38,677 nt of DNA. It comes from Deltaproteobacteria bacterium (lineage in GTDB: Bacteria > Bdellovibrionota_C > UBA2361 > OMII01). Location of the stretch: positions 1-38,677 of the forward strand of contig CANIHJ010000009.1 in NCBI GenBank assembly GCA_947467385.1, written 5' to 3'. This document shows, in pieces, positions 20,357 through 22,511 of this stretch (positions within the stretch are counted from its first letter, which is position 1; each line of letters opens with the position of its first letter). A model generated the notes under the pieces. The model did not search any database, was not told the origin of the DNA, and saw only the letters and a list, made by a program, of their open reading frames with translations. A program made the translations under genes and the position numbers.

Positions 20357-21340
20357 CTATCTCGCGTGCAGCACCATTGAGCCCCACGAGAGCCCGGCGC
20401 CAACCACTGCAACGACGATGTGCTGCCCCTGAACTATCTTGTCCCAGTGCATCGAAAGAACAGCCGGTGCGCCCGCCCCGGCCTGATTTCCAAGATGCGT
20501 AACATTGTGCCAGTGATTAGCGGGCGAGATCTCGCGGTTGTTGACGATCTGCTCAAGCATCGTCCTGTTAGCTTGATGGCCGATGAAGACATCTCGGCTC
20601 CAGTCGATCGGGTGTGACTGCTCAATCGCCTTGATCAGCCTCACCGTCTGCCGAACCGAAAAGTCCCGAACGGCGCGGCCATCCTGCCTAAAGAAGCCAA
20701 AACTCTCGACGACTACCGCCTCGCAGCGGGTGGGGTCTGCGGTAAACGTTGAGTCAATAACCTCGAGCTTGCCCTTGTGGCGGGTCGACATGACCCATGC
20801 AGCAGCGCCGTCACCCCAAATTGCCCCGTCAGAGCGGTCGGTATAGTTCACGTGCTGCGTCATCGCAGCAGTGGAGATGCACAAAACAAACTCCGGAAAC
20901 TTGCCCTCTGCAAAGTTGCGCAGGAAGTCGACGTGGAGCGCGAATGCTGGGCAGGCAGTGTACACGTCGTATGCCACGGCGTTTGAATCAAGGCGCTCTG
21001 CGATGCGGACAGCCTCGCCCGACATCGTCTGGCGCGGCGCGCAGCAGTTCACGATGATCATCCCGACATCCTTGGCCGATATGCCTGCCTGCTTGAGCGC
21101 CTTCTGTGCGGCCCCGACACCCATGTCAGTGGCGGACATAGTTGCAACCTCAAGAGCCATTCGGGGATCTTGGTTGCGAGTGGTCTTTATGTACTCTGGC
21201 GTAAGCGTCGTGACGCGCTCAAGGATGCCGATCTTCTCCTCAATCCACTGCGCATTCGTCCCAATGTCGAGGGCCTCGAGGAAGTGGTTGTCGATGGACG
21301 TTGTTGGATGGCATGTGCCCATGCCGAGAATGTCTAGCAT
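20357..21340 (-). CDS. 3-oxoacyl-ACP synthase III-like enzyme with intact catalytic triad
   Basis: A 327-residue thiolase-fold ketosynthase of the FabH group. The triad is complete: Cys130 in YDVYTACPAF, His255 in FIGHQANR, and Asn285 in HLGNQAGAG. The N-terminal NAQWIEEKIGILERV matches the FabH 'WI-x-x-x-x-GI-x-x-R' region. GGGGGA lies just before the ATG at 21340. Only 9 bases separate it from the stop of a paralogous gene upstream that lacks the triad, so the two are co-expressed and probably form a heterodimer. No acyl carrier protein, ketoreductase or other fatty-acid gene is next to it, so it is unlikely to be the housekeeping fabH. Acyl donor and acceptor are unknown. Confidence 0.88.
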   Translation of the reverse strand: MLDILGMGTCHPTTSIDNHFLEALDIGTNAQWIEEKIGILERVTTLTPEYIKTTRNQDPRMALEVATMSATDMGVGAAQKALKQAGISAKDVGMIIVNCCAPRQTMSGEAVRIAERLDSNAVAYDVYTACPAFALHVDFLRNFAEGKFPEFVLCISTAAMTQHVNYTDRSDGAIWGDGAAAWVMSTRHKGKLEVIDSTFTADPTRCEAVVVESFGFFRQDGRAVRDFSVRQTVRLIKAIEQSHPIDWSRDVFIGHQANRTMLEQIVNNREISPANHWHNVTHLGNQAGAGAPAVLSMHWDKIVQGQHIVVAVVGAGLSWGSMVLHAR

Positions 21341-21349
21341 GATATCCCC

Positions 21350-22324
21350 CTAAGCCGCCGCCTCCAGCAAAACACCACCGGAGATGCCGTCCCCTTCATG
21401 CAGGCAGGCGACCTGATCACCTTTCTGCAGGGCCGGCCATAGCGATGCCAGGCTGCAGCCTGAACTTGCGCCGAGTGAGTACCCCTTCTCAGCCGTGACG
21501 CTTACAACCCGATCGGATGGAAGATCGAGGGCGGACGCGATGCACGCAGTGTCCCCCGCAAAGAGCTGCGGGCCAATAAGGTAGCTGCTTTTGACAGCCC
21601 CCAGGTGCAGGATACCAGCGCTGATCCTGTCGCGCAGGAGGCCCTCCGGCATGAGCCTGTCGAAATCGATCGATGCGGTCCTCACCAGGGATATGGGGGC
21701 GCGCACGCTCTGATCACGGGAAAGGAACGAGCTTTTAAGGCGAAGCTTGCCCGCAACCTTGGCCGAGATGAGAACAGCCGAAGCCGCGTCTCCGAAGAGA
21801 GCCGCCGCAAGGGGAGAACCGGCGTAAGAAACAAGCTCAGTAGGCGTGTTAGTGGAGATGCACAGCACGTAGTCCGGCATCCGCTCCGGCTTCCACGAGG
21901 AGAGCATGTCGAGAGAGAGGGCGAGCGCACCGATGCCAGCGGTAACATCGTACGCAGGGACCTTGAGCTTGAGAGCTCCACCGATACGCTGTGCCTCCGA
22001 CGGGCACGTTTGGTAGGGAGTTGCGCAGTCGGCGATGATGAGGCCGAGCTGATCCGGGGTTATGCCCGCTTGGGCAAGAGCCTGATGCGCAGCGGCAACT
22101 GCTAGTGAGGTGGGGGAGTCGCTGGAAACTTTTCGGGCCTCTACAACGTCGGAGTTTTTAGTCGAACTGAGGTAGGCATGAGGCAGGACAGATCGGCGAG
22201 AGCGAACTCCGAACCGGGCGAGGGCCGCCCTGTCCGCTGCCGACGGCGACACCCCGAGCGATGCGAGGAAGTCATCGGTCAATTCTCCACCTGGATAAGC
22301 AGCGCCAGCGCCGAGGATAAACAT
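21350..22324 (-). CDS. Degenerate KAS III paralogue lacking all catalytic residues
   Basis: A 324-residue thiolase-fold protein. It aligns end to end with the downstream ketosynthase, but the catalytic Cys is Ile131 (YDVTAGIGAL), the His position is Pro (LIGPQLFAG) and the Asn position is Tyr (EKGYSLGASSG). The fold-defining parts are kept, including IIADCATPYQT and ALFGDAASAV. The ATG at 22324 is chosen because MFILGAGAAYPGG aligns with the start of the partner and GGAG lies 11 bases upstream; a longer frame to 22426 would need a TTG start and adds residues without family counterpart. A weak promoter, TTGATT then 17 bases then TTGTAC, lies near 22431-22403. The likely role is a structural or specificity subunit for the active partner. 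Confidence 0.82.
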   Translation of the reverse strand: MFILGAGAAYPGGELTDDFLASLGVSPSAADRAALARFGVRSRRSVLPHAYLSSTKNSDVVEARKVSSDSPTSLAVAAAHQALAQAGITPDQLGLIIADCATPYQTCPSEAQRIGGALKLKVPAYDVTAGIGALALSLDMLSSWKPERMPDYVLCISTNTPTELVSYAGSPLAAALFGDAASAVLISAKVAGKLRLKSSFLSRDQSVRAPISLVRTASIDFDRLMPEGLLRDRISAGILHLGAVKSSYLIGPQLFAGDTACIASALDLPSDRVVSVTAEKGYSLGASSGCSLASLWPALQKGDQVACLHEGDGISGGVLLEAAA

Positions 22325-22511
22325 CTGCCAGAATTCTCCAACCTTGAGCGGGCCGCGTGCGTCCGCCCCAGCGCAGAAGGATATCATCCCGAGAGAGGGT
22401 GAGTACAATAGTTGCAGCCCAAACAAATCAATATGTTAGAATTTTCCTTGGGCGTTTTGGCGGCGGCGTCCCGCCCTTTTGCCGGCTCGGTCCTAAGCGT
22501 ACTATGCAGGC

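Follow-up and report, generated by a model that had tools for sequence, protein, structure and literature searches.

The window analysed in this study, a 38,677-nucleotide stretch of DNA that is contig 9 of a draft deltaproteobacterial genome (1.33 Mb, 61% complete), carries two adjacent KAS III genes on its minus strand: one for a catalytic, FabH-like KAS III subunit (hereafter A; 327 aa; 20357–21340, with its ATG at 21340) and one for a degenerate KAS III partner (hereafter B; 324 aa; 21350–22324, with its ATG at 22324). On the minus strand, B and its TAG stop are followed by the nine bases GGGGATATC (21341–21349) and then by the ATG of A. A TTG at 22426 could also serve as the start of B; the ATG at 22324 was chosen because it fits the relatives, in which the distance from the B stop to the A start ranges from −4 to 46 bases. 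The short spacer, with its Shine-Dalgarno-like GGGGA, suggests that the two genes are co-transcribed and translationally coupled.

A and B align over their full lengths at about 30% identity (E = 2e-32). A exceeds the Pfam cut-offs for ACP_syn_III and ACP_syn_III_C, and B falls slightly below that for ACP_syn_III; A belongs to the KAS III superfamily by its domains and its full-length alignment to FabH, and B by its family profile and predicted fold. Both score below the cut-off for canonical FabH (NCBIfam NF006829, 249 bits), A at 171.4 bits and B at 56.1 bits. Alignment to 1hn9 equates Cys130, His255 and Asn285 of A (codons at 20951–20953, 20576–20578 and 20486–20488, minus strand) with Cys112, His244 and Asn274 of E. 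coli FabH; the corresponding residues of B are Ile131, Pro252 and Tyr282. The FabH-type Cys-His-Asn triad is intact in A of all 27 genomes compared (the Asn is unreadable in one draft sequence); among 23 B proteins, the Cys and the His occur in none and an Asn at the aligned position in three. As the triad is kept throughout A, and the Cys and His are absent throughout B, the loss of these residues from B is neither chance nor a sequencing artefact. The preliminary description of this DNA, which reported a KAS III pair nine bases apart with these residues kept in one member and replaced by Ile, Pro and Tyr in the other, is thus confirmed by the alignments and is consistent with the relatives; its statement that the fold-defining motifs of B are intact holds for the N-terminal half, but the C-terminal half is strongly diverged, even though B is still predicted to fold completely. 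Compared column by column over the same 23 genomes, A has a mean identity of 0.67 and B one of 0.34; over the C-terminal half, the part with the His, the Asn and much of the substrate site, mean pairwise identity is 0.73 for A and 0.21 for B.

Distribution, phylogeny and genomic setting

Of the 29 genomes of the order that were compared, 26 contain the locus and 25 contain A; a full B lies directly upstream of A in 23 of those 25, so that the pair is conserved in 23 of the 29 genomes. The exceptions are G002, where only B is seen, at the end of a contig, G015 and G020, where no B adjoins A, and G016, G022 and G025, which have neither gene. In G021 and G013, B is 281–283 aa long. In two genomes of a neighbouring family in the same class, G029 and G031, the frame upstream of A is B-like but shortened to about 230–260 aa; the locus is absent from the remaining genomes of the class. 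The named relatives are metagenome-assembled genomes labelled as deltaproteobacterial, Bdellovibrionales, Oligoflexia or Dadabacteria. Two gammaproteobacterial genomes contain A-type genes, 55–56% identical and nested within the A clade; B is not adjacent to them, and neither genome has a full match to B elsewhere, which is consistent with transfer of A alone; inheritance of the locus is otherwise mainly vertical. More distant relatives of A, at 35–39% identity and from groups that include Desulfobacterales and Spirochaetales, are encoded in FASII-like clusters together with FabA-type dehydratases, a KAS II-type synthase, ACP, an acyltransferase and a phosphopantetheinyl transferase.

In a 95-row tree, all B proteins form one clade (support 100/100) that is sister to A (83/98), and A and B, together with some of the distant relatives, are separate from canonical FabH. 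The branches of B are several times longer than those of A. Given that B is monophyletic and sister to A, the simplest view of B is as an ancient duplicate of A. A itself groups with FabH-like enzymes, separate from the OleA of its own genome.

The pair is flanked by SURF1, an O-antigen-ligase-like protein, HEAT and MetH, and in some families of the order a secreted coiled-coil protein and ribonucleotide reductase lie beside it. No biosynthetic partner genes were seen beside the pair in the order; the locus has housekeeping genes around it and a conserved position on the chromosome. The coiled-coil protein, with the motif LPDGRAxRxDxxGxxxVDYxAELE, is found downstream of A in 11 other loci (L069 11111–12205, L084 11109–12080 and nine more) spread over most families of the order. 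It has no informative family match and is absent beside the pair of the window, and no neighbouring gene that would account for a pathway was found.

The earlier remark that there are no fatty-acid genes around the pair holds for the window but not for the draft genome, which contains fabD and an oleA-oleBC-oleD cluster elsewhere. This cluster (contig 11, L123 5154–9850) consists of oleA, an oleB-oleC fusion (alpha/beta hydrolase plus AMP-binding, 869 aa) and oleD, and we assign it to a long-chain olefin or beta-lactone pathway; olefin synthesis is thus covered elsewhere in the same genome. Seven A-bearing genomes contain fabF and have no FabH above the family cut-off, namely G012, G013, G017 and G021, which have the pair, G020, which has no adjacent B, and G029 and G031, which have the shortened B; these are drafts of 70–95% completeness, and the absence of FabH may reflect incompleteness. 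All of them except G012 contain fabD. G016 and G022 likewise have fabF and no KAS III above the FabH cut-off. Other routes of initiating fatty-acid synthesis exist. Most other genomes of the order, including near-complete ones of the window's genus, do contain a canonical FabH, in which position 87 is usually Phe, and a role of the pair in replacing FabH is therefore not general.

A second pair, of a FabH and a degenerate KAS III, occurs in G015 (L124 1642–3655) and G025 (L125 2121–4121), where it adjoins rimI- and pyrD-like genes; its degenerate partner lacks the Cys and the Asn and forms a clade of its own in the tree, which suggests that such pairings recur in these bacteria. Adjacent KAS III-like frames of 353 and 293 aa were also found in an unrelated genome (L126 2594–4537, G051).

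Comparison with known ketosynthase pairs

In type II PKS, the active ketosynthase KS-alpha is paired with an inactive one, chain length factor, which is regarded as setting chain length; these proteins belong to the KAS I/II family (Pfam ketoacyl-synt). A and B match KAS III models and not Pfam ketoacyl-synt, which rules out membership of that group. Closer precedents come from KAS III itself. PqsBC of the alkylquinolone pathway of Pseudomonas aeruginosa is built from two KAS III-like subunits whose heterodimer mimics the FabH homodimer, and one subunit lacks all three catalytic residues, as does B (PMC4807248). In LstAB of lipstatin synthesis in Streptomyces toxytricini, which the preliminary description did not name and which we regard as a second valid analogy, the KAS III genes are adjacent, as for A and B, and encode proteins of 23% identity whose complex is needed for solubility; the catalytic triad resides in LstA, again one subunit of the two, and the partner residue Glu60 of LstB is needed for activity (PMC12141560). 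We found no KAS III heterodimers beyond these two in the literature searched, and both belong to special pathways.

The pair differs from each of them. PqsC has a Cys-His dyad and has lost the Asn, whereas A retains Asn285 in every readable relative; PqsBC is encoded in a signal-molecule operon, whereas the pair occupies one conserved locus in the order with no pqs-type genes nearby; and no PqsB or PqsC chain is among the best 60 PDB matches of the A or B family profile, in which FabH and PqsD rank above. The retained Asn and the PDB matches rule out membership of PqsBC. A link to anthranilate and PQS through the trp operon, raised as speculation in the preliminary description, is unsupported: the trp genes are an ordinary tryptophan operon, no pqs-like genes were seen within the window, and the Asn missing from PqsC is retained in A. 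LstAB catalyses the condensation of two fatty acyl-CoAs as part of a natural-product cluster, and LstA has been described as related to OleA, PpyS and FabH (PMC12141560); no such cluster surrounds the pair, and A, compared with LstA and LstB by description only, groups with FabH-like enzymes and apart from its own OleA. Canonical FabH resembles A in fold, triad, full-length homology and best PDB matches; it differs from the pair in being a homodimer, whereas A is accompanied by a dead B, in the score of A (171 bits against a cut-off of 249), and in its Phe87, which the pair lacks.

These comparisons bear on the proposal that, like PqsBC or LstAB, the pair is dedicated to making a small molecule or an unusual lipid by one condensation step, which may be non-decarboxylative. 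Both characterised KAS III heterodimers do so (PMC4807248, PMC12141560), and the FASII-like clusters around the distant relatives of A would also fit; we nevertheless consider this unlikely, because no biosynthetic neighbours of the pair were seen in the order (its flanks are SURF1, O-antigen-ligase-like, HEAT, and MetH or ribonucleotide reductase), because the locus is mainly vertically inherited, and because A retains the His and Asn for malonyl decarboxylation. The undescribed small-molecule pathway put forward previously is doubtful on the same grounds of housekeeping neighbours, conserved chromosomal place and missing biosynthetic partners.

The Phe87-equivalent loop and the constraint on B

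In FabH-type dimers, Phe87 borders the active site of the other monomer and influences chain length, with Phe at this position selecting acetyl and Thr selecting long chains (PMC3734052). Alignment to 1hn9 places Met106 of A and Cys107 of B at this position. The equivalent loop of B spans T102–I114 (TPYQTCPSEAQRI; 21983–22021, minus strand); the copy in A, which spans residues A101–I113 (APRQTMSGEAVRI; 21002–21040, minus strand), has drifted. The block of residues 98–121 of A and 99–122 of B is the only region in which B is more conserved than A (12-residue bins of 0.63 and 0.57 for B, and 0.57 and 0.49 for A). Ranked by conservation, the core of the loop is at the 100th percentile of B windows, the 25th of A windows and the 67th of ordinary FabH homologues; the loop is the best-conserved 12-residue window of the B family. 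The Phe87 position is occupied by Ala, Ile, Leu, Met, Ser or Val in A and by Cys, Thr, Ile or Val in B, and Phe is absent from both subunits in genomes with the full pair. In OleA, a Glu followed by a Pro reaches across the subunits (PMC7064751); by our own reading of the spacing to the catalytic Cys, this Glu corresponds to the Phe87 position. Such a Glu-Pro is absent from both A and B, and the genome of the window has a separate oleA. The lack of the OleA-type Glu is a further point against a dedicated small-molecule condensation.

Our preferred reading, an A-B heterodimer, predicts this pattern: the loop of B would face a live active site and be kept, whereas the loop of A would face a dead one and drift, and where B is absent A must supply the loop itself. 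The motif T[TCIV]PxExQ was defined on the B family and A was then searched for it, both with the conservation pattern already in view; it occurs in 22 of 23 B proteins, in none of the 23 A proteins with a B partner, and in all four A proteins without an adjacent B (G015, G020, L082 and L083). Position 106 is Thr in these four, and neither Thr nor Cys in any of the 23. The preliminary description took relatives with only one of the two genes to speak against a pair; such relatives do exist for A (G015, G020 and the two gammaproteobacteria), which shows that some genomes manage with A and no adjacent B and that A can presumably act alone, but their A proteins carry a B-type loop, and hence support a heterodimer rather than refute it. 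A tree calculated without the loop places the gammaproteobacterial A next to that of G020, a placement that the 95-row tree leaves undecided; we therefore count two independent events and not four, and a paired sign test of loop against presence of B has no power with two events.

Two further observations concern this loop. The A of the window is the only one of the 23 with a B partner to have lost the loop proline (Ser107), which is consistent with relaxed constraint on the loop of A. In G029 and G031 (L027 1501–2478, L028 1501–2493), A has Phe-Pro at the Phe87 position, as in acetyl-specific FabH, beside the shortened B and in genomes without a canonical FabH.

AlphaFold predicts a complete KAS III fold for the B monomer (pLDDT 94.8), with FabH as the nearest solved structures. 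Since the reading frame of B continues past its TAG stop into A, we folded the read-through protein as one chain, with eight in-frame B-A pairs and A rows as input; single-chain B rows, which a 31-row B-A alignment had set against the A half, were excluded. The model of 655 residues has a pTM of 0.86, with pLDDT below 50 only in the linker region 323–336, and contains a new strand at B105–107 and a bridge residue at A106, both absent from the B monomer model. It suggests that the loops of B and A may pair across a FabH-like interface; as a single model without a homodimer control, it is compatible with a heterodimer.

Alternatively, B could be a non-catalytic protein with a separate job, such as a homodimeric regulator or an acyl/CoA sensor, encoded by a gene co-regulated with that of a homodimeric, FabH-like A. 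The relatives in which A occurs without an adjacent B, and the complete KAS III folds predicted or inferred for both proteins, would allow for this; however, the C-terminal half of B, with much of the FabH substrate site, has drifted in a manner unlike that of a ligand sensor (0.21), B is most constrained at the loop that would serve a partner, and the loop of A is relaxed only where B is present. We regard a separate job as improbable, and less probable than the dedicated small-molecule role.

The constraint on B also bears on its persistence. Synonymous sites are near saturation, so that only the direction of dN/dS is safe, at about 0.10–0.24 for B and about 0.06 for A; B, being well below 1, is constrained and not decaying, and the pair reading survives the comparison with the relaxed selection (dN/dS near 1) that the preliminary description had set against it. 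Together with the complete predicted fold, this rules out B as a pseudogene. That B is a duplicate caught at different stages of loss is very improbable: although B evolves fast, is 281–283 aa long in G021 and G013 and shorter still in G029 and G031, and is not adjacent to A in G015 and G020, full-length B frames persist in most of the order with dN/dS well below 1, one loop of B is more conserved than that of A, and its predicted fold is intact.

A putative heterodimer with a loop-donating partner

We propose that A and B form one heterodimeric KAS III in which B acts as loop donor and which carries out a FabH-like condensation with a primer larger than acetyl, a reading to which we assign a probability of roughly 0.6. 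The idea that the active/inactive pair works as one enzyme, by analogy with PqsBC, is supported as the most likely one by the conservation of the pair and by the loop pattern. From the observed conservation, loss pattern, phylogeny and loop pattern, and from the predicted intact fold of B, we infer the physical heterodimer, its reaction, its primer size and its pathway.

According to this proposal, a duplication of A that preceded the diversification of the order would have given rise to B, which would then have lost its own active site and probably become the permanent other half of A. B would replace the second monomer of FabH and supply half of the interface, and its TPxQT[C/T]PSEAQR loop would reach across into the active-site tunnel of A, where a small residue (Cys, Thr, Ile or Val, instead of the Phe of acetyl-specific FabH) would make room for a medium-chain, long-chain or branched acyl group. 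Acyl-CoA would load Cys130 of A, and the condensation would draw on a malonyl thioester, most likely malonyl-ACP, decarboxylated by His255 and Asn285. Within the normal fatty-acid system, the pair would act as a second primer or elongator, using acyl groups other than acetyl. Given that FabH is present in most of the genomes and that none exceeds the cut-off in some, the larger-primer condensation would take place beside FabH and possibly instead of it in the latter, where the pair may be the initiating KAS III. A stronger version, in which an independently evolved, order-wide KAS III heterodimer with a loop-donating dead paralogue took over initiation from FabH in several genera, is conceivable but doubtful; if true, it would be a heterodimeric starter enzyme in core lipid metabolism and not in a natural-product pathway.

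In conclusion, the pair seems to represent an independent origin of the division of labour known from KAS III heterodimers, maintained over the evolutionary span of an order, at a locus of housekeeping character. Natural controls exist in the relatives whose A has no B beside it and carries the missing loop itself. The purpose of the dead subunit is thereby directly testable by a single loop swap, which may also open a way to redirect the choice of primer in fatty-acid synthesis.
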